From: Chachezhania sediminis
GTDB taxonomy: Bacteria; Pseudomonadota; Alphaproteobacteria; Rhodobacterales; Rhodobacteraceae
Assembly (NCBI RefSeq): GCF_009765275.1
Contig: NZ_VOPH01000006.1
Span: forward strand, 62,001 to 126,000
Reading direction: 5' to 3'
DNA: 64,000 nt
This document shows positions 43,651 through 64,000 of the stretch, one piece after another. Below the pieces are notes generated by a model. The model ran no database searches, was not told the origin of the DNA, and worked only from the letters and a program-made list of their open reading frames with translations. Positions within the stretch are counted from its first letter, which is position 1; the number at the start of each line of letters is the position of its first letter. The translations under genes and the position numbers were made by a program.

Positions 43651-43708
43651 CATGTTTGCCAAGCACGATCTCTCCACCGTGCCGGTTCCAGCCCTGTCGT
43701 GCCGGTCA

Positions 43709-46236: not shown

Positions 46237-46339
46237 TTTCGAGCTCTCCTCCCCTGTGACGGCCAGCACGGCCGAACCGGGGGACTTGCCCCCGGTAACG
46301 CGCCCGGGCCTCGAATGTGGTGCTGTGAGTGGCCTCGCC

Positions 46340-46394: not shown

Positions 46395-46424
46395 AAGCGG
46401 TTGAGATTCTTGTCGCGCGCGCCC

Positions 46425-47018: not shown

Positions 47019-47185
47019 GATGTCAATTCCTTTTGGGTGGAGTGCTGGTGATGGGCGCCCGGATCGCCTTCCTCCTCACGGCAGATCGGGACGTCGGGGG
47101 TTTCCCCGGAAGACCGAAGCCCGGTGACGGGCCCGCCTGTTTCCAAGCCCGCAAAGTGCGGGGACCTTTCGAAGGCATGTTTCCG

Positions 47186-50100
47186 TTACCGGGCCGCCTC
47201 TTGCTTCAACGCCGCTTCCAATTTTGCCCATTTGGGGCGCACGGCGGCGATGCTCCGCGCCTTGACCGGGCCAAAGCCGCGTATCCCGTCTGGAATCGCT
47301 GCAAGTTCGAGAGCCGTCTCCATCGTCTCGGGCGACAGGGTGGCAAGGATGAGTTCGATGCTCTGCCTGAAGTCCTCGATCAACTGACGTTCTTCCCGCC
47401 GTTCCACCGTGTGGCCGAAGGGGTCGAGCCGCGTGCCGCGCAGGCATTTCCCAATGGACATCAAGCGCAAAAGGGTGAAGATCCACGGCCCAAATCGCCG
47501 CTTTGCAGGTTCGCCCGTCGCCGGGTCGACCCTAGCCAGGATCGGTGGCGCGAGATGCAGATACATCCGTCCCTGCGCTCCGAAAGCCTCGTCGATCATG
47601 GCCTTGAAAGAGCTGGCGGCGTAGAGGCGCGCAACCTCGTATTCGTCCTTGTATGCCATCAGCTTGAAAAGCGACCGGGCCACCGTCTCGGTTAGCGGGC
47701 CCTCCTGTCCCATTGCCGCGGTCTCTCTGGCGCGAACCCTTTCAATCGTCTTGCGATAGCTCTCGCCATAGCGGCTATTCTGATAGCCGGTCAGGAAGTC
47801 GACCCGCCGCGCGATGGTCTCGTCCAGTGTCCGCGACGGCAGGCGATGCGCCAGTCCGGGCGCCGGAGACTCGTCCAGGAACCCGGAAAGCCGTTCCGGA
47901 TGTTGCGCCGCGACACGGCCCAGACGGAACGCCGTCTCGTTCATCTCGATCGCCACCCGGTTCAGGCGGATCGCGTTCAGGATCGCCGCCTCGGAGAGCG
48001 GGATCAGCCCTTTCTGGAAGGCGTAGCCGACAAGGAACAGGTTCGCACCGATTGCGTCGCCAAGGGTGCGCTCGGCCAGCCTTGTCGCACTGACGAGATC
48101 GACATGATCGCCACCCGCATGGCGCCGCACCGTATCCGCGAGCTTTTCCGTCGGAACATGAAAGGCGGGATCCCGGATGAAGTCGGACGTGATGGGTTGC
48201 TGTGCATTCAGGATCACGCGGCTGCGGCTGCCCGAGACCACCCCCAGCGCCTCCCGGCTTGCGGTCACGACCGGATCGCCACCGATCACCAGGTCGGCCT
48301 CGGCATCGGGAATGCGATGGGCCAGCGCGGTATCCGGCGAGGCGCAGAGCCGGATATGCGAGGTGACGGCGCCCCCTTTCTGGGCCATGCCGGTCATATC
48401 GAGGGTTGAACAGCCCTTACCCTCGGTATGGGCCGCCATCGCGAGGATCGCGCCGATGGTTATGATCCCCGTTCCCCCAACGCCGGTCACCATGATGTTC
48501 CAGGGTTCGTCCAGCGCCGGCAGCGCCGGCATCGGCAGATCGGCCGACAGGATGTCACTCAAAGCGTCCTTCAACGGCTTGCGCAGCTCGGCACCTTCCA
48601 GGGTGACAAAGGAAGGGCAGAAACCGTTGACACACGAATGATCGAGATTGCAGGACGATTGATCAATCCGCCGCTTACGCCCGAATTCCGTTTCCATAGG
48701 CGTCACGGAAAGGCAGTTGGACTTTTTCGAGCAGTCGCCGCAGCCCTCGCACACGAGTTCGTTGATAAACACGCGGCGGGTGAGCGTCGGCGTGGGGGCC
48801 GCGCGCTTGCTCCGCCGTCGCTTTTCAGCCGCGCAGACCTGATCATAGACAAGGGCCGTCACGCCCTCGACCTCGCGCAGCTCTCTCTGAACGGCGTCGA
48901 GCTCTTCGCGGGGATGGATCGTCACCCCCTCTGCGAAGCGCTTTTGCCCGCGGTACTTTGCGATGTCATCGGACGCCACAGCGATACGTTCGACGCCTTC
49001 GGCACGCAATTGATGCGTGATCCGCTGCGGATCCAGGGGCCCGTCATGCGTCTGGCCGCCGGTCATCGCCACTGCGTCATTATACAGGATCTTGTAGGTA
49101 ATATTGACCTTCGCGGCCACGGCAGCCCGGATCGCCAGAAGACCCGAATGAAAATATGTGCCATCGCCGATATTCTGGAAAACATGGCGGGTCGGAACAT
49201 ATGGCGCCTGGCCGATCCAGTTCGCGCCTTCTCCGCCCATATGGGTGTAGGTCGCGGTGTTCCGATCCATCTTCTGGGCAAGATAGTGGCAGCCGATCCC
49301 GGCGAAGGCGCGACTTCCCTCGGGCACTTTGGTCGAGCTGTTATGTGGGCAGCCCGAGCAGAAATAGGGGGTTCGTTCCCAAAGCGGCACGTCCGGCAAA
49401 GCGGCACGTGCGTCCGTCGCCTGCCGCAACCGTTCGCCCAGATCGGGTGCATCGATCAAGGGCAGAAGACGCTGCGCCAGCACGGCAGCGATGCGGTCGC
49501 TCGACAGATCGCCATGCAAGGGGAACACGATTTGCCCCTGCGCGTCACGCTTGCCCAGAACCCGCGGGCGGCGGTCGGCCGGCATATGAAAAAGCTGATC
49601 CTTGATCTGGCTTTCGATCAGGGGGCGTTTTTCCTCGATCACCAACAGCTCTTCCAGCCCCTCGGCAAAGGCATGAAGACCTTGCGGTTCGAGAGGCCAG
49701 ACAAGGCCCACCTTGTAGACCGAGATCCCCAGCTCCGCGGCACGTTCGAGAGGCAGCCCCAGGATTTCCAAAGCCTGCAGAAGGTCGAGATAGGATTTGC
49801 CCGTTGTCACGATGCCGATCCTTCGGCGCGCCGTGGCCCCTTCGACCCGGTCGATCCGGTTGGCCCGCGCAAAGGCGCCAACGGCCGGGATCTTGTGATT
49901 GTGCAGGCGGCGTTCCATTGCCTGCGGGCTGTCCGGCCAGCGAATGCTGAGCCCGCCGTCAGGCAGTTCGATATCGGTCGGCGTCGCAAAACTACGAAGG
50001 CCCGGAACGGCAATGGAGGCAGAAGAATCCATCGTGTCTGCGACCAGTTTCAAGGCCGCCCAGGTCCCGGAAAATCGGGATAGAGCCCATCCGAAGAGAC

Positions 50101-50647
50101 CGAACTCCAGAATCTCCCGAACCCCCGAAGGGTTGAGCACCGGGATCATCGCGTCCACCAGCGCGTATTCGCTCTGGTGCGATGTCGTCGACGATTTGGC
50201 CGTATGATCGTCACCTGCCAGAACCAGAACGCCCCCGTGGGGTGCGGTGCCAGCCAGATTGCCATGTCGGAGAGCATCGCCCGAGCGATCGACGCCCGGC
50301 CCCTTGCCATACCACATCGAGAAGACACCGTCGCGATGCGCCCGCTCCATCAGATTTATCTGCTGCGTCCCAAGAACGCTGGTCGCGGCGAGGTCTTCGT
50401 TCACGGCGGGATGCAGCGTGATGTCCTGAGGATCAGTGAAGCTCCGCGCGCGCAGGAAAGTCTGGTCAACCCCACCCAAAGGCGAGCCTCGGTAGCCAGT
50501 TACAAATCCTGCGGTGTTCAGGCCCGCAGCCATATCTGCCCGCTTCTGCATCAGCGTCAGCCGGACCAAAGCCTGGGTTCCGGTCGTAAAAATGCGATCT
50601 TCAGAAAGATCGTACTTGTCATCGAGTTCTATTGTCTGGTCCAGCAT
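47186..50647 (-). CDS. Indolepyruvate ferredoxin oxidoreductase, fused single-chain form
   Basis: Thiamine-diphosphate and iron-sulfur enzyme of 1,153 residues that oxidatively decarboxylates aryl-2-oxo acids to aryl-acyl-CoA. Order of parts: N-terminal pyruvate-oxidoreductase domain (GYRGSPLGGVDQ), a TPP-binding domain (YFCSGCPHNSS, GGEGANWIGQAPY, NITYKILYNDAVAMTGGQ), a cysteine-rich segment (VCEGCGDCSKKSNC, DHSCVNGFCPSF), the gamma domain (VTGVGGTGIITIGAILAMAA) and the C-terminal DUF6537 region. Start ATG 50647 has GGAGG eight bases before it. It is divergent from an Lrp-type regulator. It probably handles phenylpyruvate or indolepyruvate from aromatic amino acids, or a 2-oxo acid made in the nearby aromatic pathway. 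Confidence 0.93.
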   Translation of the reverse strand: MLDQTIELDDKYDLSEDRIFTTGTQALVRLTLMQKRADMAAGLNTAGFVTGYRGSPLGGVDQTFLRARSFTDPQDITLHPAVNEDLAATSVLGTQQINLMERAHRDGVFSMWYGKGPGVDRSGDALRHGNLAGTAPHGGVLVLAGDDHTAKSSTTSHQSEYALVDAMIPVLNPSGVREILEFGLFGWALSRFSGTWAALKLVADTMDSSASIAVPGLRSFATPTDIELPDGGLSIRWPDSPQAMERRLHNHKIPAVGAFARANRIDRVEGATARRRIGIVTTGKSYLDLLQALEILGLPLERAAELGISVYKVGLVWPLEPQGLHAFAEGLEELLVIEEKRPLIESQIKDQLFHMPADRRPRVLGKRDAQGQIVFPLHGDLSSDRIAAVLAQRLLPLIDAPDLGERLRQATDARAALPDVPLWERTPYFCSGCPHNSSTKVPEGSRAFAGIGCHYLAQKMDRNTATYTHMGGEGANWIGQAPYVPTRHVFQNIGDGTYFHSGLLAIRAAVAAKVNITYKILYNDAVAMTGGQTHDGPLDPQRITHQLRAEGVERIAVASDDIAKYRGQKRFAEGVTIHPREELDAVQRELREVEGVTALVYDQVCAAEKRRRSKRAAPTPTLTRRVFINELVCEGCGDCSKKSNCLSVTPMETEFGRKRRIDQSSCNLDHSCVNGFCPSFVTLEGAELRKPLKDALSDILSADLPMPALPALDEPWNIMVTGVGGTGIITIGAILAMAAHTEGKGCSTLDMTGMAQKGGAVTSHIRLCASPDTALAHRIPDAEADLVIGGDPVVTASREALGVVSGSRSRVILNAQQPITSDFIRDPAFHVPTEKLADTVRRHAGGDHVDLVSATRLAERTLGDAIGANLFLVGYAFQKGLIPLSEAAILNAIRLNRVAIEMNETAFRLGRVAAQHPERLSGFLDESPAPGLAHRLPSRTLDETIARRVDFLTGYQNSRYGESYRKTIERVRARETAAMGQEGPLTETVARSLFKLMAYKDEYEVARLYAASSFKAMIDEAFGAQGRMYLHLAPPILARVDPATGEPAKRRFGPWIFTLLRLMSIGKCLRGTRLDPFGHTVERREERQLIEDFRQSIELILATLSPETMETALELAAIPDGIRGFGPVKARSIAAVRPKWAKLEAALKQEAAR

Positions 50648-50690
50648 TTCGGGCCTCCTGTGACGACAGAATATTTTCCCAAAAGCGCAA

Positions 50691-50710
50691 TTTCTTGACT
50701 TTTCTTGACC
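50691..50710. promoter_or_regulatory. Tandem 10-base repeats in IOR/Lrp divergent promoter
   Basis: TTTCTTGACT followed directly by TTTCTTGACC, i.e. two copies one helical turn long, in the AT-rich 119-base region between the IOR gene and the Lrp gene. TTGACT at 50695-50700 with TATCTT 18 bases later could form the Lrp gene promoter. Repeats in helical phase are how Lrp/AsnC oligomers bind, so autoregulation plus IOR control is likely. Confidence 0.5.
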
Positions 50711-50766
50711 TTTTTTGATATCTTAATGACAAATATTATCAATGTTACGCGAATTTTGGACATAAA

Positions 50767-51240
50767 ATGACCGAGCCACTGAGCCCCGTAGATTTGAAGA
50801 TCCTTGAGGTGCTGCAGCAGCAGGGGCGCATCAGCATGACCGAATTGGGAGAGCGCGTCGGATTGTCGACGTCCCCCTGCGCCCGCCGTGTCAAACGGCT
50901 GGAAGACGAGGGGCATATCACGAAGTATGTCGCGCTGTTGAACCCGGAGTCGCTGGGAGCATCGCTGATCGTCTTCGTCAACGTACGCCTTGGCAGCCAA
51001 ACCCGAGACGCCTTCAACCGCTTCGAAGCGGCCGTGCAGAAATTTCCCGAAGTCGTCGCCTGCCATCTCCTCGCCGGCGGTTTCGACTATCTGGTTCAGG
51101 TTCGGGCACGTGACATCAAGGAATTTCGGGATTTCATGCGGAACAGTTTCACGGTGATCGAGGGCGTGGCCGAAACCCAATCCAGCATTGTCCTGGAAGA
51201 ACTGAAATCGACCACGGAAATTCCTTTTGCACACCCCTAG
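50767..51240 (+). CDS. Lrp/AsnC-family transcriptional regulator
   Basis: Small regulator of 157 residues with an N-terminal helix-turn-helix (ISMTELGERVGLSTSPCARR) and a C-terminal RAM domain (VACHLLAGGFDYLVQVRARD, GVAETQSSIVLEELKSTTEI). It binds amino or oxo acids as effectors. It is divergent from the indolepyruvate oxidoreductase, a frequent arrangement in proteobacteria, and probably induces it in response to aromatic amino acids. Confidence 0.95.
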   Translation: MTEPLSPVDLKILEVLQQQGRISMTELGERVGLSTSPCARRVKRLEDEGHITKYVALLNPESLGASLIVFVNVRLGSQTRDAFNRFEAAVQKFPEVVACHLLAGGFDYLVQVRARDIKEFRDFMRNSFTVIEGVAETQSSIVLEELKSTTEIPFAHP

Positions 51241-51345
51241 CGGGACAGGCGTGCGCGCCATGGGCCCGCCTTGGGAAATCAAGCACCTTGCCGACACGTT
51301 CATTCGCCAATTTGCCGGCCGACGATGAACAGACAGGGACAGTCG

Positions 51346-51440
51346 GTGCCGCGAAATCGCCAGATCAAGCTGGGCGCCTTCGCCCCGGTTTGCTGTGATC
51401 TTGCCCCCGGTCGACCTGCGACACAGCCCGGCTGCCCGGA
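51346..51440 (+). pseudogene. Possible N-terminal stub of an LLM-class flavin monooxygenase
   Basis: From GTG 51346 (AGGGAC upstream) the frame reads PRNRQIKLGAFAPVC, which resembles the start of NtaA/SnaA/DszA-type luciferase-like monooxygenases, then loses similarity. Such enzymes serve desulfurisation or chelator breakdown, which would suit the sulfatase next door. The match is only about 15 residues, so this is tentative. Confidence 0.3.
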
Positions 51441-51659
51441 ACGCCCAGGGCCCGACGTGACCTCTTCCGGAAGATAAGGCATTATTCTTGATCGCGATTG
51501 TCACGTTTCAGAAATCCTGATCTCTTTGTCTTGGCCGTGGTTATTGCCGCGTTTCGCGGCCTTGGCCGGGGCAGGTGACGGGGCGTTCTGTGGTGAAAGA
51601 AGGCACAGATCCGCACGTCTCATTTCCATGAGCGTCGATTGTTCCGGTCTTTTGAGAAA

Positions 51660-51693
51660 GCGGCGTAAACCGGGGTTGTGCGGGTTACGCCGC
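51660..51693 (-). terminator. Hairpin after arylsulfatase 2
   Basis: Stem GCGGCGTAAACC / GGGTTACGCCGC (one mismatch) with a ten-base loop, 27 bases beyond the sulfatase stop. Followed on the minus strand by CTTTCTC, a poor T run. Probable transcription terminator. Confidence 0.5.
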
Positions 51694-51719
51694 CGATCAT
51701 GCAGTGCGCTTGCGCTGAC

Positions 51720-53429
51720 CTATTTTTCGGATGTCGTATGTGGCGGTTCAAACAGATATTGCGTCTGGTTGGTTGCAACAATTTTCTGAGAGAGCCCGGT
51801 GTACCAGTAGATATCGTAGGCAGCCCGGCAATGCTCCCAATCAGCTTTCAATTCTGCCAGCTTGTCTTTCCGCTCCGCTGCAAGGTCTTGTCTCTCCACC
51901 GGATCATTCCCAAGGTCGAACAATTCGAAATCGCCGGCGCCCCATGGCGCGTTGCTATGGACAATTTTCCAGCCGTCCTTCCATACAGCCACCCTTCCAA
52001 ACAGCTCCGTGCAGACTGGATCCTGTTGGGGGCGCGGCACGTCCTGCACACCTTGCAGCCAAGGCATCAGGGAATGTCCCGTCATCGGCTTCAGGTCGGG
52101 AGTGTCAATTTCAGTGACGCCGGCAATGTCCAGAAGGGTGGGCGCGATGTCGGTGATATGCACGAAATGGTCCTGTCGACCCCCCGCGCCCCAACCGGGA
52201 TACGAGATGAAAGCGGGCGACCGAGTGCCGCCTTCGTACGTGAATCCCTTGGTCATCCGGAACGGCGTCTGGCTTACCGCGGCCCAGGACGGCCCATACC
52301 CGAAATACGACCCCCGTCGACCCAGGTTTTCCAACGAATTATCGAATGCGCGACTGATGTACTCGCGGTTCCGACCGCCAAGGACCTCTCCGGGCAACGT
52401 TCCTTCGGCGCCGTTGTCAGAGAAGAAGATGAAAACCGTATCGTCGTATTCGCCCTTCTCTTTCAGATAGGTAACGAGGCGACCGACATTCTGGTCAATC
52501 TCGTAGATCATCGCCGCATAGACCTCCATCTTGCGGGCTTCGATCTTGCGCTGTTCCGCATCCAGTTCGTTCCAGTGCGGCCAGAGGTCGGGTTCCAGGT
52601 TGGGCTGCACATCCGGCCCGATCAGTCCGATCTCCCGCATGCGTTCGAGCCTGGCACCCCGGATTTCATCATATCCCCCATCGTACTTGCCCTCGAACAG
52701 AGCGATGGAGTCGTCCGGTGCCTGCAGTGGCCAATGCGGTGCCGAGAAGCCGAGAAAGGCAAAGAACGGTGCATTGTCCGTTGCGGCTTCGATCTGATCG
52801 ATCAGGTGCGTCGTGAAATACTCGGTCGAATAGGTGAAATCCTCGCCGAGATCGACCAGCTCCCCGTCACGCGTATAGGTCGCCTTGGGTAGGGCCTCGA
52901 TCGCGCCCGTCTGGTCGAAATGATGGGCGGCACCGTTTATCAGGGCAAAGGAACGTTCAAACCCGCGTGCGGCAGGGCGCTGTTCTTCCCGGCCGCCGAG
53001 ATGCCACTTTCCCGACATGTAAGTATGATATCCATTGTCTCGCAGCACCTGGGGAAAGCTGACGACACGGTCGTTCAGAAAGCCCTCGTACCCCGGAAGA
53101 CCGCGCTGTTCATCAAGGATTTCCTCGGCCATGGTGCCCAACCCGGCCACATGATTGTCCGTGCCCGACATCAGCATGGCCCGGCTGGGCGAGCACGTCG
53201 GTGCCACGTGGAAATTGGTGAACCTGGTGCCTTCGCGCGCAAGCGCATCGAGAGAGGGGGTAGGGATTTCCCCGCCAAATGCGCCGATGTCCGAATAGCC
53301 CATGTCATCAGCGACAATCAGGACAATGTTCGGTCGCCCCTCCTGCGCCTCTACGGGCTGTCCGAGCGCCAGCGTCGCGGCTCCAAGCATGAAACACGCC
53401 GCCGATCTGTTTGAAAGAAACCCTGTCAT
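51720..53429 (-). CDS. Type I arylsulfatase (periplasmic)
   Basis: Sulfate-ester hydrolase of 569 residues. A signal peptide (residues 1-28, ending ALGQPVEAQ) sends it to the periplasm. The formylglycine cysteine is C79 in TCSPSRAMLMSG; calcium ligands are in IVADDMGYSD and FFSDNGAEG; basic active-site residues are in YMSGKWHLGG and SAPHWPLQ. This is the common 55-65 kDa class, unlike the 909-residue enzyme at 38 kb; the two share fold but not length or C-terminal domain. It needs formylglycine maturation encoded outside the window. It is downstream of the FAH and NTF2-like genes on the same strand, 112 bases after the FAH stop. Confidence 0.95.
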   Translation of the reverse strand: MTGFLSNRSAACFMLGAATLALGQPVEAQEGRPNIVLIVADDMGYSDIGAFGGEIPTPSLDALAREGTRFTNFHVAPTCSPSRAMLMSGTDNHVAGLGTMAEEILDEQRGLPGYEGFLNDRVVSFPQVLRDNGYHTYMSGKWHLGGREEQRPAARGFERSFALINGAAHHFDQTGAIEALPKATYTRDGELVDLGEDFTYSTEYFTTHLIDQIEAATDNAPFFAFLGFSAPHWPLQAPDDSIALFEGKYDGGYDEIRGARLERMREIGLIGPDVQPNLEPDLWPHWNELDAEQRKIEARKMEVYAAMIYEIDQNVGRLVTYLKEKGEYDDTVFIFFSDNGAEGTLPGEVLGGRNREYISRAFDNSLENLGRRGSYFGYGPSWAAVSQTPFRMTKGFTYEGGTRSPAFISYPGWGAGGRQDHFVHITDIAPTLLDIAGVTEIDTPDLKPMTGHSLMPWLQGVQDVPRPQQDPVCTELFGRVAVWKDGWKIVHSNAPWGAGDFELFDLGNDPVERQDLAAERKDKLAELKADWEHCRAAYDIYWYTGLSQKIVATNQTQYLFEPPHTTSEK

Positions 53430-53541
53430 TGCACTCCTCCATTGCTGACAGATGCGGTACTGGCTCGTGTCCGAGCCATTCGCATGGCCACCGCGACGTA
53501 CTCCTCGACGTGGCGGGGCTCTCGACGTGTCCGTCCGTCGT

Positions 53542-54408
53542 TCATTCGCTGACAGCTACGTTCCGGATATGCCCAAGACCCGTGATCGCGGCATGCATCA
53601 CGTCGCCCGGCTTGACGAAGGTCGGCGGCTGCATGGCGATGCCCACCCCGCCGGGCGTGCCGGTCGCCAGGATGTCGCCTGGCTTGAGCGTCATGACCTG
53701 CGACAGGTAGGACACTTGCTCGGCGATGCTGAACACCATGTCCCGGGTATTGGCGCTTTGCCGGATCTCGTCGTTGATCCGCATCTCAAGGTCCAGGTTC
53801 TGCGGATCTTCGATCTCGTTGTCGAAGGTCAACCAGGGACCTGTCGGTCCGTGCGTGTCAAAAGACTTGCCCAGCGTCACGCTGGGGGACCTCATCTGCC
53901 AGTCGCGCGCGGAAACATCATTGGCGACCATGTAACCGCCGATCACGCTGCGCGCCTCGGCTTCATCGACATATCGGCAGCTCTGCCCGATCACGACGGC
54001 AAGTTCGACTTCGTAATCGACCTTTTCGCTGACCGAAGGAATGACCACCTCGTCTACCGGACCGACGATGCAGGACACTTGCTTGTTGAACCACACCTGC
54101 GTTTCCGGCGGCTTTAGGCCCAGCCGCTCCGCTTCCGCGCCGTGCGCCTTGTAGTTCAGCCCGATGCCGAGGAACTTCTCGGGAGCCGGGATCGGAGCAA
54201 GGAGGCGCACATCTTCAATCGCGATCCGGCCCGGCGCATCCGGCCCGATTGCATCGAAGCCCGCACGGGCTTCCGAAGCCGGGTCGAGATAGGCCACGAT
54301 TTCGCGAGGAAGATCCGGCGCGGCGACGGAGAGATCCACCATGAAGCCGTCGAACACCTTTGCAAGTGCCGTCGCTCCATCGGATTTGCAAATGCGGGCA
54401 ATAGGCAT
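53542..54408 (-). CDS. FAH-family hydrolase/isomerase (HpcE/acylpyruvase type)
   Basis: Protein of 288 residues of the short FAH class, which includes acylpyruvases, HpcE-type isomerase/decarboxylases and 2-keto-3-deoxy-fuconate-type hydrolases. The metal-binding ExE is in DYEVELAVVIG, the family core in GYMVANDVSARDWQ, and the C-terminal motif in LKPGDILATGTPGGVG. It is ten bases downstream of the NTF2-like gene, so translation is likely coupled. It differs from the 343-residue FAH protein at 41.9 kb, so the two may take consecutive steps after ring cleavage. Confidence 0.92.
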   Translation of the reverse strand: MPIARICKSDGATALAKVFDGFMVDLSVAAPDLPREIVAYLDPASEARAGFDAIGPDAPGRIAIEDVRLLAPIPAPEKFLGIGLNYKAHGAEAERLGLKPPETQVWFNKQVSCIVGPVDEVVIPSVSEKVDYEVELAVVIGQSCRYVDEAEARSVIGGYMVANDVSARDWQMRSPSVTLGKSFDTHGPTGPWLTFDNEIEDPQNLDLEMRINDEIRQSANTRDMVFSIAEQVSYLSQVMTLKPGDILATGTPGGVGIAMQPPTFVKPGDVMHAAITGLGHIRNVAVSE

Positions 54409-55542: not shown

Positions 55543-55866
55543 TCAGACCTTGGCGGTCTCGGTGATCTCGACCATCAGGCGGTCGTTTTCCACCTTCACC
55601 GGATAGGTTTTCAGCGGCCGCTTCGCAATGCGCGACCGGGCTTCGCCCGTGGGTACGTGGAACAGCGCCTGGTGGACCGGGCATTCGATGCAGTCGTCTT
55701 CCAGATACCCGTCCGACATCAGCGCGAAGGCATGGGTGCAGATGTTCGAGGTGGCATAAAACACGCCTTCGATCCGGTAGAGGGCGATCATTTCCTCGCC
55801 GATGGTCACGCCCAGCACCTGGCCTTCGGCCACTGCGCTTGTTTCGGTCACGTCATGCCAAGCCAT
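55543..55866 (-). CDS. Rieske-type ferredoxin
   Basis: [2Fe-2S] electron-transfer protein of 107 residues. The Rieske ligands are C43, H45, C62 and H65 (NICTHAF, ECPVHQALF). It resembles ferredoxins of naphthalene/biphenyl dioxygenase systems (NagAb, BphF). It is the last gene of the minus-strand group that begins with the Rieske oxygenase at 62.5 kb and probably passes electrons to it. No matching ferredoxin reductase is in the window. Confidence 0.93.
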   Translation of the reverse strand: MAWHDVTETSAVAEGQVLGVTIGEEMIALYRIEGVFYATSNICTHAFALMSDGYLEDDCIECPVHQALFHVPTGEARSRIAKRPLKTYPVKVENDRLMVEITETAKV

Positions 55867-55895
55867 GGGTCTTCGTCTCCGTCAAATCCAAATGT

Positions 55896-57494
55896 TCACC
55901 AGGCCACCGCCGCGCCGTCCTTGCGGCTGTCGGTGGCGGCCAGCCAGGCGTCGTCCAGACGCCACAGCATCTGTGCGGACCCGAAATCCATGTAGCCGGG
56001 CACCGGCGGCACGATCTTGTGCCCACGTTCGGCCAACGCCGCTACGACATGGGGCGCGATGCCCGCCTCCAGGTTGATGTCCAGCCCGGCGACGTGGCGG
56101 TGGCGCGGGCCGTCGATGGCAGTCTGGGGTTCGCCCCCCGCCGCAAGCAGGCGCAGGGCCAGCGCGATCTGCACCTGCGGCTGCATGTTGCCGCCGGATA
56201 CGGCGACAGCGGCCTGTCCCAGTCCGTCCACCGTCAGAAGCGACGGCATCAGCGTGTGCAGCGGCCGTTTCCCTGCCACCAACAGGTTCGGATGACCGGG
56301 TCGCAGGGAAAAGCCGCCCATCCGGTTGTGGAAACTGATCCCCGTACCGGGCACCACGACGCCGGATCCGAAGCCCACGAAATTCGACTGCAGGAAGGAC
56401 ACCATACGCCCTTCGCGGTCGGCGGCGACCACGGCCACAGTGCCGCCACGTCCCGGCAGGCCAGGCTTCCGCGCCGCGGCCCTGCGTTCGACCCGTGCCG
56501 CCCGCCTCGCTGCATGGTCCGGGTCGCGCAGTTCGTTCAGCGGCAGCCGCTGCCCGGCCGGATCGCCAAGAGCCGCGGCAACATCGGCCGAGGCGCATTT
56601 GAACGCCTCGATCTGAAGATGCCGGCCTTCGACGCTGTCGGGGTCCTGCAGGGGCGCATCGAAATGCGACAGGATTCCCAGCGTCAGTTCGATCACCAGC
56701 GCCTGCGTGTTGGGCGGTGCGACGTGCATCACGGCCTCGGGCGCGCCCGGGGGCGTGGACGACAGCGCCACACCCCATTCGGACCGGTGTTGCACCAGAT
56801 CCTCGTGCCTCAGAAGGCCTCCATGTTCCACCGCGTGCGCCACCATCGCATCGGCCAGCGGACCCTCGTAGAAGGCGCGCCCCCGTGTGGACGCGATCAA
56901 TTCAAGGCTGGCGGCCAGGTCGGGCTGGCGGAAGATCGCGCCGGGTTGTGGCACCAAGCCCTGCGGCAGGTAGGCCTCGGCAAAGCCAGGCTGGTCCTTC
57001 AACCCGTCGACCTGGATCTGCCAGCGGCCCCGGACGCCCGGGGCCAGCGGCGCGCCTTCGCGGGCCCAGTCGATGGCCGGTTCGAACAGGGTCTCGAACG
57101 GCAGACGGCCGAAACGCTCCGACAGGTCGACCCAGGCCGCAACGGTGCCGGGCGTGGTGACGCTGCCCCAGCCACGGGGTGGGATCCTGTCCAGTGCCGC
57201 GACCCGGTCTTCGGTCCAGGCCAGGGGGGCCCGGCCGGTGCCGTTCAGAACGACCGGATCCTGACCCGGTTCGGACACCATGGCAAAGGCGTCGCCACCC
57301 AGCCCGGTCGACACCGGTTCCAGCACGATCAGCGCGATACCTGCCGCGAGCGCCGCATCCACCGCGTTTCCACCGGCGCGCAACATCGCAAGCCCGGCCT
57401 GCGCGGCAAGCGGGTGCGATGTCGCGACCGCGTCGCGGCCGATGGCGGGCGCCCGGGCGACGGTCTTGCGGCTGTCCCAGCGGACGTCCTTCAC
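55896..57494 (-). CDS. Gamma-glutamyltransferase-like amidohydrolase (YwrD/HpxW type)
   Basis: Ntn-hydrolase of 532 residues, made as a precursor that cleaves itself. The expected nucleophile is Thr352 in RGGTVAVVAAD, followed by FLQSNFVGFGSGVVVPGTGI, the pattern of the YwrD/HpxW (oxamate amidohydrolase) branch rather than classical glutathione-degrading GGT, which has TTH. No signal peptide, so cytoplasmic. The start is GTG 57494 with GGAG upstream; the frame stays open to 57713 but overlaps the neighbouring gene. It lies between an ABM-domain gene and the Rieske ferredoxin. It may split an amide or gamma-glutamyl group off the imported substrate. Confidence 0.88.
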   Translation of the reverse strand: MKDVRWDSRKTVARAPAIGRDAVATSHPLAAQAGLAMLRAGGNAVDAALAAGIALIVLEPVSTGLGGDAFAMVSEPGQDPVVLNGTGRAPLAWTEDRVAALDRIPPRGWGSVTTPGTVAAWVDLSERFGRLPFETLFEPAIDWAREGAPLAPGVRGRWQIQVDGLKDQPGFAEAYLPQGLVPQPGAIFRQPDLAASLELIASTRGRAFYEGPLADAMVAHAVEHGGLLRHEDLVQHRSEWGVALSSTPPGAPEAVMHVAPPNTQALVIELTLGILSHFDAPLQDPDSVEGRHLQIEAFKCASADVAAALGDPAGQRLPLNELRDPDHAARRAARVERRAAARKPGLPGRGGTVAVVAADREGRMVSFLQSNFVGFGSGVVVPGTGISFHNRMGGFSLRPGHPNLLVAGKRPLHTLMPSLLTVDGLGQAAVAVSGGNMQPQVQIALALRLLAAGGEPQTAIDGPRHRHVAGLDINLEAGIAPHVVAALAERGHKIVPPVPGYMDFGSAQMLWRLDDAWLAATDSRKDGAAVAW

Positions 57495-57511
57495 GTCAGG
57501 CGCTCCGGTCT

Positions 57512-57877
57512 TCAGGCCCGGTCGAGGATTTCCTGCGGGGTCGAAACCACCACCTCGACATAAAGCGGCTTCATCGACGCCGGGCCATCCGCCAGCAGCG
57601 GCGCGTAGTCGGGCTTCAGTTCGGCGATCAGGGGCAGGATTTCCTTGTGCTCGGCGATGCTTTTCCATTCGCCGATCAGGAAGAACCGGTTGGGATCGTC
57701 CGACGCCCGGCACAGCACGCCGTCACGGACCTGCGCGGGGGACTTGTGCATCGGGTTCTCGTCCGAATAGTCGAACTTTTCGAACCGCTTGATGAACTCG
57801 TCGCCCATCCCGTCCTTCACCTTGAAGTCAAAGATGTGGAGAATGTTGCCCTTGTCGGCAAGTGCGGTCATGGCCAT
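57512..57877 (-). CDS. ABM-domain protein (antibiotic biosynthesis monooxygenase-like)
   Basis: Small protein of 121 residues with a dimeric alpha+beta-barrel pattern (ILHIFDFKVKDGMGDEFIKR, FFLIGEWKSIAEHKEILPLI). ABM-type proteins oxidise quinols or anthrones without cofactors, or bind intermediates. It sits between the transporter permease and the GGT-like gene in the Rieske operon. Function beyond the fold is not determined. Confidence 0.8.
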   Translation of the reverse strand: MAMTALADKGNILHIFDFKVKDGMGDEFIKRFEKFDYSDENPMHKSPAQVRDGVLCRASDDPNRFFLIGEWKSIAEHKEILPLIAELKPDYAPLLADGPASMKPLYVEVVVSTPQEILDRA

Positions 57878-57910
57878 GGGTTCTGGTCCTTCAGTTTGAT
57901 ATGGGTGGGA

Positions 57911-58750
57911 TCACGCCTTGGCGTCGCTGGCGACGGGCTGTGCGACAGGTCCCTTGGCGGGCTTGGACGGGGCGGTCGGCCGGGCATGGCTGCGGCGGCT
58001 TTCGTGCCAGGGGATCAGCTTCGCCTCGGCATATTCCATCATGTAGTAAAGCGCGGTGCCGATGGCGGCCAAAACGATGATCGAGGCATAGACACGGTCG
58101 GTCCGGAAGGCGCCCTGCGACGACAGGATGACGAAGCCCAGGCCGTTCTGCGCGGCCACGAATTCGCCCACGATGGCCCCCACCAGTGCCAGCGAGATGG
58201 CGACCTTCATGCCGGCCAGGATCGACGGCATGGCATTGGGCAGGCGCAGCTTCATCAGCACCTTGAATTCGGACCCGCGCATGGCGCGGCCCAGGTCGAT
58301 CAGGTCGGGATGAAGCGAGCGCAGGCCCAGCACCGTGTCGATGACGATGGCGAAGATGGAAATCAGGACGCCCATCGCGATCTTGGACGCGTTCCCCGTG
58401 CCCAGCCAGATGACGAAAAGCGGCGCCAGCGCCACCTTCGGCACGTTGTTGACCGTCACCAGCAGGGTATAGAGCGTCTTTTCCAGGAATTTCGAATAGA
58501 CGATGCCGATGGCCATGCCGACGCCCGCGACGACGGAAATGGCAAAGGCGATCAGTGTATTGCCCAGCGTATGACCGCCGTGGCGCAGGTAGAGGCCGAA
58601 ATTACCGAAAAGTTCACCCAGAACCTTGGGCACGGGTGGCAGGATGATCGGCTTGATGTCCAGCACCATCACGCAGGCCTGCCAGACGGCAAAGATGCCG
58701 ACGATGGTCCAGACCTGCATCGGGATATAGGCCAGAGGGTTCTTCTTCAT
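57911..58750 (-). CDS. ABC transporter permease, SsuC/TauC/ThiX type
   Basis: Membrane subunit of 279 residues with about six helices and the permease EAA-type loop (LGRAMRGSEFKVLMKLRLPNAMPSI split over its centre). The C-terminal tail is rich in Ala/Pro/Lys and unusually long. Works with the ATPase at 58754, three bases away, and the binding protein at 59570. Family members import sulfonates, nitrate, riboflavin or pyrimidine precursors; the neighbouring Rieske genes suggest an aromatic or heterocyclic acid. Confidence 0.92.
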   Translation of the reverse strand: MKKNPLAYIPMQVWTIVGIFAVWQACVMVLDIKPIILPPVPKVLGELFGNFGLYLRHGGHTLGNTLIAFAISVVAGVGMAIGIVYSKFLEKTLYTLLVTVNNVPKVALAPLFVIWLGTGNASKIAMGVLISIFAIVIDTVLGLRSLHPDLIDLGRAMRGSEFKVLMKLRLPNAMPSILAGMKVAISLALVGAIVGEFVAAQNGLGFVILSSQGAFRTDRVYASIIVLAAIGTALYYMMEYAEAKLIPWHESRRSHARPTAPSKPAKGPVAQPVASDAKA

Positions 58751-58753
58751 GGC

Positions 58754-59554
58754 TCAGGCCCTCCGGGCGCTGTGGCCGTCCAGCACGCCGCGCAGGTGGC
58801 GGGCGATGCGGCCGAATTCCGGTTCTTCCCGGATTTCAAGCGGACGGGGACGTTCGAAGGGAATTTCCGTAATGTCGACGATCCGGCCCGGCTTGTCGGA
58901 AATCACGACGACACGGTCCGACAGATAGACGGCTTCGTTGATCGAGTGGGTGACGAAGACGGCGGTCTTTTCCGGATCGGGCCACAGGGCCTGCAGTTCG
59001 AAATTCAGGTCGTCCCGGGTCAGCGCGTCCAGCGCGCCGAAGGGTTCGTCCATCAGCAGAAGCTGGGGATCGTCGATCATGGCGCGGCAGATCGCGGCGC
59101 GCTGGCGCATGCCGCCCGACAGTTCCCACGGGTTGCGATCCTCGAATTCTGCAAGACCGAAGGTGGCCAGCAGGTCCCTGGCCCGCTGATATGCGGCTTT
59201 GGTCCGGCGGCCCTTGAATTCCAGGGGCAACAGCACGTTTTCGATGATGGTGCGCCAGTTGACCAGAGCATCGCGCTGGAACACGAAGCCCAGGCCATCC
59301 AGCCCCCGACCCGGCAGCCAGATGCTGCCCTGGGTCGGGTCTTCAAGCCCCGCGATCATGCGCAGAAGCGTCGTCTTCCCGCAGCCCGAAGGGCCCAGCA
59401 GGCTGATGAATTCACCCTTGCGCACGTCCAGGTTTACCAGGTCGAGTGCCGTCACCGCACCGTCGCCAGAGCCGTAGGTCTTGCCCACGCCGTCGATCTC
59501 GATGGCGTAACGCGGGTGCGTTTCGGGGGCGGGTGCGGTGAGGGTCTCGGTCAT
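58754..59554 (-). CDS. ABC transporter ATP-binding protein, SsuB/TauB type
   Basis: ATPase of 266 residues. Walker A GPSGCGKTTLL, signature LSGGMRQRAAI, Walker B LLLMDEPFGALD and switch FVTHSINEAVYL are intact. It is 15 bases after the binding-protein stop and three bases before the permease, so the three form one transporter. Confidence 0.95.
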   Translation of the reverse strand: MTETLTAPAPETHPRYAIEIDGVGKTYGSGDGAVTALDLVNLDVRKGEFISLLGPSGCGKTTLLRMIAGLEDPTQGSIWLPGRGLDGLGFVFQRDALVNWRTIIENVLLPLEFKGRRTKAAYQRARDLLATFGLAEFEDRNPWELSGGMRQRAAICRAMIDDPQLLLMDEPFGALDALTRDDLNFELQALWPDPEKTAVFVTHSINEAVYLSDRVVVISDKPGRIVDITEIPFERPRPLEIREEPEFGRIARHLRGVLDGHSARRA

Positions 59555-59569
59555 GGTCCCTTGGTCTTC

Positions 59570-60610
59570 TTACTGGCCGACGATGCTGCGGCCGTAGTCG
59601 GCATCGTTGTAGGTGGTGGCGATGTAGTCCGCCGGATCGGTGCTGGCGTCGATGATGCCGGCGGCCTTCATCTCTTCCAGGACGGTGGCCCATTCCTCGA
59701 CCGACATGGTGCCGGGGAAGGCGCCGTCGCCGGCATAATAGGGCTTGTTCAGGTTGAATTCGGACACCAGCCGTTCGACCGAGGTCGGCGCGTCGGGGCG
59801 CTGTGCCATCACCGCTTCGGCGGCTTCCTGTTCATGGCCGTCCAGGATGTATTCCCAGGCTGCCGAAACCACCGAGGTGAAGCGCTTGATCGCGTCGCCC
59901 TTGTCGGCCAGCGAATCCGTGTTGGCGATGATGCCGAAGGCCGGCAGGTTCAGGCCGTGATCGGCAAACAGGAAGTAATCCGAGTCACGCTCTTCTTCGA
60001 CGTGGGGCATGTCGCCCGGCACGGTGGTGATGAAGGCATCGGCATTGCCGGTGGCATAGGAAGAGATCTTGGCCGACGCCTCGACGCCCACCAGTTCGAT
60101 GTCCGACGGGTCGATGCCGTTCATCTTGAAGAAGGGTTCGATGAAGGGCGTTTCGAAGGACCCGGGCGTGTAGATGACGGTCTTGCCCTTCAGGTCTTCC
60201 AGCGTCTCGATGCCGGCATCCTCGGCATATATGATCCCCAGCGGGCTTTTCGCCATGTAGGAGGCAAGCGCCGTCACGTCGAGGCCCGCGGCCGCACCCA
60301 CGGCTGCAGACGACAGCGCGGCATGGCCCAGGTCGAACTGGCCGGTCCCGACCAGGTTGACGGTAGTGGTGGATCCGTTGCCGTCCTCGATCATCACGTC
60401 AAGGCCGGCATCCTTGAACCAGCCCTTCTCGACCGCCAGATGCAGCGGCAGGTGGGCGACGAAGGCGGTCCATTCCAGGCGCATCGTCAGCGGATCGAGG
60501 TCCTGCGCCCTGGCCGCACCCGGGATCGAGGCCAGCGGCAGCATCGCGGCCAGGCCGGCCAGCAACGTCCGCCGGCCGAACCGGCCGGAAAGGAAGGAAT
60601 GTCTGGTCAT
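59570..60610 (-). CDS. NMT1/THI5-like periplasmic binding protein
   Basis: Secreted binding protein of 346 residues. The N-terminus RFGRRTLLAGLAAMLPLASI with a twin arginine looks like a Tat signal. The mature protein has the NMT1 pattern (AHLPLHLAVEKGWFKDAGLD, NLVGTGQFDLGHAALSSA, YTPGSFETPFIEPFFKMNGI). Such proteins bind pyrimidine precursors, riboflavin, sulfonates or aromatic acids. It is 96 bases downstream of the Rieske beta subunit and is followed by its ATPase and permease. Confidence 0.92.
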   Translation of the reverse strand: MTRHSFLSGRFGRRTLLAGLAAMLPLASIPGAARAQDLDPLTMRLEWTAFVAHLPLHLAVEKGWFKDAGLDVMIEDGNGSTTTVNLVGTGQFDLGHAALSSAAVGAAAGLDVTALASYMAKSPLGIIYAEDAGIETLEDLKGKTVIYTPGSFETPFIEPFFKMNGIDPSDIELVGVEASAKISSYATGNADAFITTVPGDMPHVEEERDSDYFLFADHGLNLPAFGIIANTDSLADKGDAIKRFTSVVSAAWEYILDGHEQEAAEAVMAQRPDAPTSVERLVSEFNLNKPYYAGDGAFPGTMSVEEWATVLEEMKAAGIIDASTDPADYIATTYNDADYGRSIVGQ

Positions 60611-60706
60611 TGCACGTCTCCTTGTTGGCCAGTCTGGCCGGTCCAGTCCTGGTCGATTTTTTCTTGTTGTGAGTGGTGGCCCGGACGGGCCGGGGTCGTT
60701 TCGAGT

Positions 60707-61234
60707 TTAAGGCGGAAACACGACGCTGACCGGCACGCAGACCGTGTCGTAAAGCGCGCAGCGTTCCTTCAGCAGAAGCGTTTCGCCATCCAGCGCGAAC
60801 CGGTCGTGATAGCTGCCGACCTGCAGGATCCGGGTCGGTTCATCCACATGGGTTTCGAAGATGACATAGTTGGACCGGGCCGACAGGATGTTGCCCTCCA
60901 GCCCAAGGATACGGGTGTTCGTCACCTGGTGCTTGCTGTAGCGGGGGCCGAACATCTCGGTATTCTCGATCGCATAGGCCCGGTCCTTCAGCATCCCCCG
61001 GCCGTTGCAGTACATCAGCGACAGCGGCAGCCCGGCTTCGGCATTGTCCCGCGCCAGCAGGCGATAGACGCCGTCTTCGGTGAAGAAATCGGGCCAGTCC
61101 GCGATCCGCCCGGCATCCAGCACCTCGGCATAGAGGCTGTTGAACTCCTCGACCAGGAAGGTCAGGCGGAGGCGTTCGTCGACCGGCAGGGTCGAAATCA
61201 CGGAAACGGGTGGCTCCATCTCGGCGATGTTCAC
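60707..61234 (-). CDS. Aromatic-ring-hydroxylating oxygenase beta subunit (NagH/AndAd-like)
   Basis: Structural small subunit of 175 residues with an NTF2-like fold. The segments WPDFFTEDGVYRLLARDN, GLPLSLMYCNGRGMLKDRAY and KHQVTNTRILGLEGNILSAR follow the pattern of NagH (salicylate 5-hydroxylase) and related beta subunits. It starts at GTG 61234 behind GGAGATGG and overlaps the alpha-subunit stop as GTGA, so the two subunits are translationally coupled. Confidence 0.93.
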   Translation of the reverse strand: MNIAEMEPPVSVISTLPVDERLRLTFLVEEFNSLYAEVLDAGRIADWPDFFTEDGVYRLLARDNAEAGLPLSLMYCNGRGMLKDRAYAIENTEMFGPRYSKHQVTNTRILGLEGNILSARSNYVIFETHVDEPTRILQVGSYHDRFALDGETLLLKERCALYDTVCVPVSVVFPP

Positions 61235-62508
61235 AGGCCCATCTCCTTGCGATACCACGCGTACATGCCGCGCAGGGCACGGTCGGTGATGACGGTGTCG
61301 TCGGGCTCGTCGTCCTTGCCCAGAGGGATGACCCCGTCGCGTTCCGACCCGCGCAACGCGCCGTCGGACACGAACTTGATCACCTCGTTGTCGTCGATCC
61401 CGATGAACCCGCCCGGGCCGAAGATGTTGTTCTGTTTCAGCCGGTGTTCCTGCATCGCCTCGTCATCGTCGGCATAGCCGTAGCTGGCCCAGATCAGCAT
61501 GAACTTGTCCGGCCCCATCGGCACGATCTGCCGGGCGGAAAAGATGTTGGTCTGCCGGATCAGGATCATGTTCGGCCAGATCGTCAGCGCATTCGACGTC
61601 CAGGGGCTGTCGGATTCCTTGACGATGTTCAGCACAGACGGATCTTCCAGCTGCATCGCCGAATGGAAGGACCCGATTTCGGCCGTGGTCTCGTCGTTTT
61701 CGGGGCGGCCTTCAGGGCGGCGGTTGCAGGTCGCGCTGTGGCGGCCGGCCTCGTCGGTGATCACGAATGTCTCGTTCGATGCCACGAACAAGCCGAAGGT
61801 CGTCAGGTAGGTGTGCAATAGCGTGGCGTGGTACGTGTCCTTCAGGTTTTCCTGGTACAACTTCCAGTTGCCTTCCAGGATGTTCCGGTGGACCCCCAGC
61901 AGCCGCAGCGGACGTCCGTCCATCGCGGTGTCGAACTGTTCCAGCATCTGCGGACCCAGATAGTCTTCGAAGGGTTCCATGTCGTCATGGGCCGACACGA
62001 AGATCGCACCGTTGCGCGTCGTGACGTTCAGGCGGCGCAGCGAATTCGCCCCCATATCGAAGTCCTTGGGCATGCCGCCCTTGCCCTTCACGCCACGGCG
62101 GAACGGGACCGACTGCAGGCTGCCGTCCAGACCATAGTTCCACTGGTGGTACGGGCAGGTAAAGCTTTCGGCCTTGCCGCGATAGCTGCGGCAGAACTCG
62201 GCGCCGCGATGGGCACAGCGGTTTTCGAAGGCGCGGATCACGCCTTCCTCGTCGCGGACGACGATGATCGGCATGGATCCCAGATAGGACCGGATGAAGC
62301 TGCCGACTTCGGGCACCTCGACTTCCAGTCCGGCATAGTTCCAGGTGCGGCCCTGGAAGATGCGCTGCTGTTCCAGCTCGGCGATGTATTCGTCCGTATA
62401 GATCCACTCGGGCACATGGTGGGGATCTTCCGGCCACGTGTAGTCCTTCAGCCGTTCGGCATCCGGGGCAACCTTCGAGCGGTCGGGGAATTGGGTCATG
62501 TTGCCCAT
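61231..62508 (-). CDS. Rieske non-heme iron oxygenase alpha subunit (salicylate 5-hydroxylase/anthranilate dioxygenase-like)
   Basis: Catalytic subunit of 425 residues that hydroxylates an aromatic ring. The Rieske ligands are C98, H100, C118, H121 (RCAHRGAEFC, TCPYHQW); the mononuclear iron site and bridging Asp are D224, H227, H232 in KDTYHATLLHT. PFRRGVKGKGGMPKDFD and LYQENLKDTYH match NagG (salicylate 5-hydroxylase) and AndAc closely. ATG 62508 is preceded by GGAGG. Electrons would come from the Rieske ferredoxin at 55.5 kb. Likely substrate class is a salicylate, anthranilate or similar ring acid brought in by the ABC transporter encoded just downstream. Confidence 0.94.
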   Translation of the reverse strand: MGNMTQFPDRSKVAPDAERLKDYTWPEDPHHVPEWIYTDEYIAELEQQRIFQGRTWNYAGLEVEVPEVGSFIRSYLGSMPIIVVRDEEGVIRAFENRCAHRGAEFCRSYRGKAESFTCPYHQWNYGLDGSLQSVPFRRGVKGKGGMPKDFDMGANSLRRLNVTTRNGAIFVSAHDDMEPFEDYLGPQMLEQFDTAMDGRPLRLLGVHRNILEGNWKLYQENLKDTYHATLLHTYLTTFGLFVASNETFVITDEAGRHSATCNRRPEGRPENDETTAEIGSFHSAMQLEDPSVLNIVKESDSPWTSNALTIWPNMILIRQTNIFSARQIVPMGPDKFMLIWASYGYADDDEAMQEHRLKQNNIFGPGGFIGIDDNEVIKFVSDGALRGSERDGVIPLGKDDEPDDTVITDRALRGMYAWYRKEMGL

Positions 62509-62865: not shown

Positions 62866-63984
62866 TCAATGACCGGCGCGGCGCTGCTCCCACGCGTTTC
62901 GGGCCAGGGCCATGCCGCGATAGATGCCGTGCACGAACTTGCCATAGGGCATGGTCAGAAACAGCGTCATCACCGCACCCAGATGCAGGACCAGCATCGG
63001 CCCCATCGCAGGGGTGTGACGCAGGAAGGCCAGCAGCAGCCCGGTCAGACCCGTCGCGAACAGCATCGCGATGAAGGCCACGTCCATGCCGCGGCTTTCG
63101 GTGTCCCACAGATGGGCCGGGCGCTTCATCTTGGCCAGGAACAGGCCCACCGGCCCCACGACCAAACCGATACCGCCCAGCGTGCCCAGCACGACGGGCA
63201 GATCCCAATAGGGATAGGGCGCCTCGCGCCCCAGCAGGTAGTGGTACAGCGTCGCGATGCAGGTCGCGGCAAAGCACAGGCCGAAGCCATAGAAGGTAAG
63301 ATGGTGCCACAGCTTGCGCGGATCGCCCCCCTGCCCTTCGTTCCCGGCACAGCCCGGCCCGCCCCCGTCCAAATGGGTTAGCCGCGCGGCCTGGTGCCCG
63401 GCGCGCGCCAGGTCGATCGCGGCGGGCGCCCCGCCCGCCAGATCGCGCCAGAAGGCCAGCGCCCCCATGCCGATAGCCACCAGCATGTACAGGAACGCGG
63501 CCCCGAACAGCGCCGCCATCACGTTGTGGGGCATCAGGGCATAAAAGTTCTCGGGGTGCAGATAGGCGGTGAACAGGTCGCCGCCATGGACCACGATCAT
63601 GCCCAGCAGGAAGGCCGAGACGACGACCAGGAAACCCAGCCCGATCCACAAGCCGTTTCGCCTGAACACCGGCTGCAGCGCGGCGGGCCAGGCGTATTCG
63701 GCGTAGCTGTCGTTCCTGACCTTCGCCAGAACCTGGGGCACGTTCACGTCGAATTCGTGCGGGGGCGAAAACTGGCACGCATCGTGGCAGGCCCCGCAGT
63801 TGTGGCAGAGGTTGGCAAGATAGCGCAGGTCCGCGTCGTGGAAGGCACGGCGCAGTTCCATCGCCGGGAAGACCGGACAGATCCCTTCGCAATAGCGGCA
63901 GGAATTGCAGACCGTCATCAGGCGGTCGGCCTCGGCCAGCATCGGCGTGGCGTGGGGCAGGATGGGTGCTCCGGCGTCAGACAT
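62866..63984 (-). CDS. tcuB: Tricarballylate/citrate utilisation protein TcuB (CitB family)
   Basis: Membrane iron-sulfur and b-type-heme protein of 372 residues that reoxidises the flavoenzyme TcuA by passing electrons to the quinone pool. Two [4Fe-4S] motifs are near the N-terminus (CNSCRYCEGICPVF, CHNCGACHDACQF), followed by about six membrane helices with histidines for heme (LWHHLTFYGFGLCF, ATLYHYLLG, GKFVHGIYRG). It starts at ATG 63984 and overlaps the end of an upstream frame. It precedes the Rieske operon on the same strand, but with a 357-base gap it is probably a separate transcript. Confidence 0.92.
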   Translation of the reverse strand: MSDAGAPILPHATPMLAEADRLMTVCNSCRYCEGICPVFPAMELRRAFHDADLRYLANLCHNCGACHDACQFSPPHEFDVNVPQVLAKVRNDSYAEYAWPAALQPVFRRNGLWIGLGFLVVVSAFLLGMIVVHGGDLFTAYLHPENFYALMPHNVMAALFGAAFLYMLVAIGMGALAFWRDLAGGAPAAIDLARAGHQAARLTHLDGGGPGCAGNEGQGGDPRKLWHHLTFYGFGLCFAATCIATLYHYLLGREAPYPYWDLPVVLGTLGGIGLVVGPVGLFLAKMKRPAHLWDTESRGMDVAFIAMLFATGLTGLLLAFLRHTPAMGPMLVLHLGAVMTLFLTMPYGKFVHGIYRGMALARNAWEQRRAGH

Positions 63985-64000
63985 GGGCCGCGGCCTCCTC
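63977..64000 (-). CDS. C-terminal end of an upstream gene, probably tcuA (partial)
   Basis: The minus-strand frame entering at 64000 reads EEAAAHV and stops at TGA 63979-63977, overlapping the TcuB start by eight bases. Seven codons cannot prove identity; tcuA (the FAD dehydrogenase) is the usual neighbour with this kind of overlap. Confidence 0.3.
   Translation of the reverse strand, partial: EEAAAHV

Follow-up and report, generated by a model that had tools for sequence, protein, structure and literature searches.

The stretch of DNA analysed here (the window) comprises 64,000 nucleotides of Chachezhania sediminis, i.e., positions 62001-126000 of a contig in the 5.6-Mb genome. At 55543-62508 its minus strand carries an operon of eight genes for an alpha-beta Rieske oxygenase with ferredoxin, an NMT1-type ABC importer, an ABM-fold protein and a GGT-like hydrolase. 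These genes probably represent a distal, optional module of a larger catabolic cluster, the gene content of which points to degradation of an N-heteroaromatic acid, most likely an isonicotinate-type 4-carboxypyridine (probability of this joint reading about 0.55). The gene content and gene order, their conservation in two species and the occurrence of a module-free core in other genomes are observed directly.

Operon structure and surrounding cluster

The eight genes and the two genes upstream of them in the window are:

55543..55866, minus: Rieske-type ferredoxin (PF00355, 67 bits; AndAb/HcaC-like, below cut-offs)
55896..57494, minus: GGT-family Ntn-hydrolase (PF01019, G_glu_transpept, 416 bits; predicted nucleophile Thr352)
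57512..57877, minus: ABM-fold protein (structure model and Foldseek; recurrence beside the oxygenase clade)
57911..58750, minus: ABC transporter permease (PF00528, BPD_transp_1)
58754..59554, minus: ABC transporter ATPase (PF00005, ABC_tran)
59570..60610, minus: NMT1/THI5-type substrate-binding protein (PF09084, 150 bits)
60707..61234, minus: Rieske oxygenase beta subunit (PF00866, 42.3 bits)
61231..62508, minus: Rieske oxygenase alpha subunit (PF00355 and PF00848; C-X-H..C-X2-H and D..H..H residues present)
62866..63984, minus: tcuB, electron-transfer partner of TcuA (TIGR02484, 391 bits, cut-off 246.6)
63977..64000 (whole gene to ~65380), minus: 3' end of tcuA, FAD-dependent tricarballylate dehydrogenase (PRK08274, TIGR02485)

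All eight reading frames of the block are present, with intergenic gaps of 2-96 bp as first called. The better starts for the beta subunit and the GGT-like hydrolase are GTG codons at 61234 (overlapping the alpha stop by 4 bp) and 57494, respectively, each preceded by a ribosome-binding-like sequence. In Chachezhania antarctica SM1703 (G001; other genomes of the comparison are likewise given G numbers) all eight genes recur in identical order and strand with 75-96 % identity (alpha 87, beta 75, binding protein 89, ATPase 90, permease 87, ABM 96, GGT 82 and ferredoxin 86 %), and the block is therefore more than a product of chance. Thus, the eight-gene minus-strand operon of a preliminary description is confirmed by frames, gaps, domains and gene-for-gene conservation, and its reading as an oxygenase operon, catabolic in kind and equipped with an NMT1-type importer, is supported. 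At 51.7-54.8 kb, genes of the DUF4440, FAH and sulfatase types are unmatched beside the C. antarctica cluster and were rejected as further operon members. A scan of named genomes with an alpha pair alignment, for which narrow patterns were chosen, returned C. antarctica as the single locus, and a promoter scan found none, as chance would predict.

Cluster motif, catalytic domain and beta subunit identify an alpha-beta Rieske ring-hydroxylating oxygenase; no gene for its reductase is present among the frames of the eight-gene block. The binding protein has THI13/THI5 and ThiY-type chains as relatives in the PDB and a twin-arginine-like leader (as read from the sequence), while no leader was seen in the GGT-like hydrolase, which is taken as cytoplasmic.

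Upstream of alpha on the same strand, tcuB follows after a gap of 357 bp and lies at the edge of the window; beyond it come tcuA and genes for a medium-chain reductase, a CoA ligase and an amidase. The divergent arm encodes a TAXI/TRAP importer and an XRE-type regulator. It also specifies two large subunits of molybdenum hydroxylases, FAD and 2Fe-2S subunits, three hydrolases (one PuuE-like, two isochorismatase-like) and a class II aldolase-like protein. Some 27 kb of this cluster are retained in C. antarctica, except for the placement of TcuA-TcuB. It is this wider cluster, only partly visible in the window, that shifts the interpretation to an N-heteroaromatic acid.

Predicted core pathway from a 4-carboxypyridine to tricarballylate

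Two molybdenum hydroxylases, CoA ligase, reductase, imidase, amidase and TcuAB together form a gene set of the citrazinate type and, judged by gene content, the core probably represents a route from a 4-carboxypyridine to tricarballylate. The two molybdenum hydroxylases would introduce hydroxyl groups at both carbons flanking the ring nitrogen, yielding a 2,6-dihydroxypyridine such as citrazinate, and the CoA ligase would activate the acid. The medium-chain reductase may then contribute to ring reduction to a glutarimide, the PuuE-like hydrolase may open the cyclic imide, and removal of the amide nitrogen may fall to the amidase, perhaps together with the isochorismatase-like hydrolases. The resulting tricarballylate could be oxidized to cis-aconitate by TcuA-TcuB. 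On chemical grounds, glutarimide formation and hydrolysis should yield tricarballylate only from a carboxyl group at position 4 and not from the other two positions. The isonicotinate route of Mycobacterium sp. INA1 reportedly proceeds via citrazinate, its CoA ester and tricarballylate; the core offers a candidate enzyme for each of its steps, and a Rieske module is not known from that route. Genes for isonicotinate breakdown via citrazinate were not found in the open literature searched, most subscription journals lying outside this coverage.

TcuA exceeds the cut-offs of PRK08274 (680 bits, cut-off 369) and TIGR02485 (584 bits, cut-off 373); TcuB passes that of TIGR02484 and stays below that of the subfamily model PRK15033 (454 bits, cut-off 524). 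Both proteins thus pass equivalog cut-offs like TcuA-TcuB of Salmonella, but are encoded in a heteroaromatic cluster, and no TcuC-like transporter was noticed beside them. TcuA converts tricarballylate to cis-aconitate, as stated in a title cited in PMC10468695.

The PuuE-like protein scores far below the cut-off of the PuuE model (112.7 versus 424.6 bits), matches PuuE structures at E-values of 1e-25 to 1e-24 and, within the polysaccharide-deacetylase family, belongs with the allantoinases. According to PMC9304392, fungi that break down nicotinate open a piperidinedione with HxnM, a cyclic imidase related to PuuE. The fungal pathway as outlined there likewise involves a molybdenum hydroxylase, ring reduction, opening of a cyclic imide and amide hydrolysis, but differs in proceeding without CoA step and TcuAB and in ending with 2-hydroxyglutarate. 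Among the annotated plasmid relatives of one of the molybdenum hydroxylases (MoHyd1) is KdhC (41 % identity), the record of which contains a gene for 2,6-dihydroxypyridine 3-monooxygenase nearby.

Core and module in other genomes

A search of 385 genomes of the class with MoHyd1 retrieved 17 besides its own at E<=1e-160, 16 of them with at least 52 % identity. The most complete core was found in G520, comprising CoA ligase (55 %), reductase (49 %), both molybdenum hydroxylases, amidase, PuuE-like protein (54 %), TcuA (72 %), TcuB (59 %), regulator and TRAP permease. In the 35 kb read of G667, only CoA ligase, reductase and amidase are missing from this set, and G496 possesses molybdenum hydroxylases, PuuE-like protein, regulator, amidase and a distant TcuA; most of the 13 other places read around MoHyd1 homologues contain no comparable gene set. 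In the same class sample, alpha was matched at E<=1e-100 in 28 genomes and ABM in 15; G520, G667 and G496 belong to neither group. Similarly, plasmid pDP3 of Alicycliphilus denitrificans encodes a CoA ligase (56 %), a quinone-reductase-like protein (55 %), a PuuE-like protein (52 %), an amidase (46 %) and a regulator (59 %) together with two molybdenum hydroxylases and annotated tcuA and tcuB, while oxygenase alpha, ABM, GGT and NMT1 binding protein are all unmatched on it. This 62.8-kb plasmid seems devoted to the core pathway, with several genes present in two copies.

Outside the family, core and oxygenase meet in G762 (alpha 64 %, beta 54 %), where the oxygenase is encoded together with CoA ligase, reductase and both molybdenum hydroxylases; the ferredoxin is unmatched in the 98 kb read around the cluster. 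In G762 (L093:9215-16507), the cluster adjoins the F420 biosynthesis genes for F420 ligase, CofD and CofC and an F420-dependent-type reductase, a possible electron source for ring reduction.

Several observations weigh against the assignment of the eight genes to a 4-carboxypyridine cluster. The 357-bp gap makes co-transcription of tcuB with the oxygenase genes a candidate only, and in C. antarctica TcuA-TcuB are located at the opposite end of the cluster, with TcuA being 59 % identical. In G762, no TcuB was found in the region read and the TcuA-like protein (37 % identity) passes one of two TcuA models. CoA ligase and reductase were not found in the 35 kb read of G667, and the pDP3 molybdenum hydroxylases share 33-34 % identity with those of Chachezhania.

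Oxygenase and ABM-fold protein

Among characterized relatives, the alpha subunit has salicylate 5-hydroxylase NagG (7c8z, 374 bits) as best solved structure and AndAc as best NCBIfam model; the neighbouring genes differ from those of NagGH and AndAcAd, and the cut-offs for anthranilate 1,2-dioxygenase are not reached (AndAc 373 of 750 bits, AndAd 111 of 230, AndAb 104 of 150). In a tree of 38 alpha rows, which has long branches in other parts, the two Chachezhania species and G762 form one clade (support 100/100); its sister group consists of 19 rows from picolinate-type or ABM clusters, and these 22 stand apart from the rest (100/100). The Chachezhania alpha subunit falls outside the clade of picolinate-cluster oxygenases (PicB), forming its sister clade (100/100) among the loci used; pic clusters were recognised by gene content, the PicB sequences of Alcaligenes faecalis JQ135 lying outside the comparison. 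The pic pathway and picB1B2B3B4 are described in PMC10142695.

Resemblance to the 6-hydroxypicolinate 3-hydroxylase PicB of A. faecalis JQ135 and Bordetella RB50 extends to a two-subunit oxygenase encoded beside a molybdenum hydroxylase and to the sister position of alpha. In contrast to pic clusters, the molybdenum hydroxylases of Chachezhania are not PicA-like, and ABM, GGT and an NMT1 importer are present instead. By analogy with its sister enzymes from picolinate clusters, for which such substrates are assumed, the module's oxygenase may act on a hydroxypyridine carboxylate. The alpha-beta oxygenase, supplied by its own ferredoxin and a reductase encoded elsewhere, would hydroxylate the hydroxypyridine carboxylate, and the NMT1-type ABC importer may take up a related pyridine acid. 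NMT1-type importer genes recur at oxygenase loci (G514, G762, G767 and others).

Fusions of ferredoxin, ferredoxin reductase and oxygenase alpha (944-964 aa) are encoded at L096:9324-12155 (G708) and L097:8044-10935 (G497). In G003, G010, G250, G153, G768, G527 and G627, the alpha match falls into open frames of 949-1295 aa, which suggests a similar fusion there, and Paracoccus seriniphilus (L042) has a 989-aa frame of which the annotation table lists the alpha part only.

The ABM-domain protein of the preliminary description scores below the Pfam cut-off (20.1 versus 23.1 bits). The assignment is nonetheless upheld, because a confident predicted model (pLDDT 93.7) has as best Foldseek matches ABM-fold proteins, including the cofactor-independent oxygenase SnoaB. 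Residues H14, D17, N41, H44, Q49, D52, C56, E70, W71 and H77 are invariant among the ABM rows. An alpha of at least 49 % identity is encoded by 12 other genomes of the class sample, 10 of which have ABM on the same contig at 1-23 kb distance; of the other four ABM genomes, ABM adjoins a PicA-like molybdenum hydroxylase in G591 and an NMT1-type binding protein in G615. The family sample (394 genomes) contains four genomes besides C. antarctica that possess alpha (50-52 %) and no ABM in the stretch read; a search for ABM on plasmids gave no match. ABM is thus a recurrent partner of the oxygenase clade.

None of the 12 ABM-bearing oxygenase loci has PicC or PicD nearby, whereas ABM-lacking picolinate-type loci contain PicC in nine of nine and PicD in seven of nine cases (the Variovorax locus from which the queries were taken being excluded). 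This distribution makes ABM a marker of clusters without the known lower picolinate pathway nearby. Weak exceptions at ABM-bearing loci are PicE in G452 (51 bits), PicG in G527 and G627 (37-41 bits) and PicF in Chachezhania (71-74 bits). Genome-wide, PicD is absent at E<=1e-10 from eight of the 12 ABM-bearing genomes; the others yield matches of 49 % (G452) and 36 % (G514, G479) and a 47-residue piece at a contig end (G762).

The ABM-fold protein may act on the product of the oxygenase. One may tentatively speculate that the module constitutes an undescribed branch for pyridine carboxylates, in which the cofactor-free ABM protein would oxidize or open a Rieske-made dihydroxypyridine in place of PicC-PicG; joined to the citrazinate-tricarballylate set, one 27-kb cluster would then convert two pyridine acids to cis-aconitate.

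GGT-like hydrolase

The preliminary description had classified the hydrolase as a YwrD/HpxW-type Ntn-hydrolase. This stands with respect to the GGT family and the catalytic threonine, both shared with 2nlz, YwrD and HpxW; Thr352 aligns with the nucleophile of the family, as in true GGT. The closest solved chain is 2nlz (354 bits; named cephalosporin acylase), and 5hft, presumably the oxamate amidohydrolase HpxW, is much more distant (127 bits). The score for TIGR00066 (270 bits) is below the cut-off of 358, and the gamma-glutamyl pocket is not kept, FREMAP/NNQMDDF/RPLSSM being replaced by GTGRAP/HNRMGGF/RPLHTL relative to E. coli GGT (2e0w) and the canonical-looking paralogue L001. In the E. 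coli enzyme the gamma-glutamyl-binding residues are presumably R114, Q430, D433, S462 and S463. The hydrolase may thus cleave an amide other than gamma-glutamyl.

No GGT-family match exists in the 98 kb of contig around the G762 cluster, though oxygenase, NMT1-type importer and ABM are kept, and among 18 further oxygenase loci (alpha 44-52 %) a GGT-like gene was found in G452 only. The G452 gene, located between molybdenum hydroxylase and oxygenase, belongs to another subfamily, its product sharing 47 % identity with another Chachezhania paralogue as against 36 % with the hydrolase of the block. As G762 shows no GGT-family gene in the region read and that of G452 comes from another subfamily, the hydrolase appears to be an optional member of the module. 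Co-location of GGT and oxygenase is weak as proof of linkage, because the family is common (four genes in C. sediminis) and G452 the sole extra case; with about four copies in ~5 Mb, a dozen loci would include one with a GGT gene less than 10 kb away by chance at estimated odds of ~1 in 6. Elsewhere in the C. sediminis genome (L141, G000:C12), another GGT-family gene lies ~8 kb from another Rieske oxygenase with reductase, separated by genes that look unrelated.

Reading the substrate from the hydrolase was rejected, because the oxygenase is retained without it in the closest relatives from other genera and the pocket is not kept. The earlier suggestion, drawn from the hydrolase, of an amide, oxamate or gamma-glutamyl substrate is hence not supported, the G762 neighbourhood, with its oxygenase and no GGT-like gene, being the kind named beforehand as refuting it.

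Alternative explanations

Instead of forming one pathway with the core, the module may be a mere neighbour, each part handling its own unrelated (hetero)aromatic acid. This is possible, albeit clearly less probable than the joint reading: the core occurs elsewhere without the module, oxygenase and ABM (with or without the NMT1-type importer) occur without the core, e.g., in G514, G767 and G708, and the 357-bp gap lies ahead of alpha. G762 speaks for a connection, with oxygenase, ABM, NMT1-type importer, CoA ligase, reductase, PuuE-like protein and both molybdenum hydroxylases within ~46 kb on one contig and the TcuA-like gene directly adjoining alpha.

That the oxygenase is a 6-hydroxypicolinate 3-hydroxylase, with a pathway ending via 2,5-dihydroxypyridine and maleamate, is rather unlikely. 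Beyond G762, alpha relatives at 49-52 % are mostly encoded in clusters with a PicA-like molybdenum hydroxylase, several of them with PicC-G, and the two isochorismatase-like hydrolases are weakly PicF-like (74 bits); however, PicC and PicD have no match at E<=1e-10 in the C. sediminis genome, PicG gives a partial match of 24 % only, the Chachezhania molybdenum hydroxylases are ~35 % identical to the PicA type, and alpha stands outside the picolinate clade. Very improbable is an aniline- or amide-bearing aromatic compound processed as a gamma-glutamyl or similar conjugate, with the GGT-like enzyme as defining step. The presence of the GGT-like gene inside the block in both Chachezhania species and the G452 arrangement would agree with it, but the residues of the gamma-glutamyl pocket are not retained, 17 other oxygenase loci besides G762 lack the gene, and the frames examined at 51.7-64 kb and in the adjoining ~20 kb revealed no glutamine-synthetase-like gene. 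The absence of such a partner had been recorded correctly in the preliminary description; its analogy to gamma-glutamylanilide handling is not borne out.

Further genes of the window

The plus strand at 30641-37846 contains a 2401-aa frame with many SIGGGGG-type repeats, resembling an autotransporter. Sulfatase-like genes are located at 38010-40739 and 51720-53429. The stretch at 40522-54408 resembles aromatic catabolism, with an FAD monooxygenase, a VOC-like protein, an indolepyruvate oxidoreductase-like protein and two FAH-like proteins; names were assigned by eye except for the FAH-like protein at 53542-54408 (domain search).

Implications

If the assignment to a 4-carboxypyridine is correct, the cluster would provide a testable gene set for isonicotinate-type breakdown via tricarballylate, a little-studied route, and TcuAB would be a marker of 4-carboxypyridine catabolism. 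Since the ABM-fold protein marks oxygenase clusters without the known lower picolinate pathway, its role becomes directly testable.

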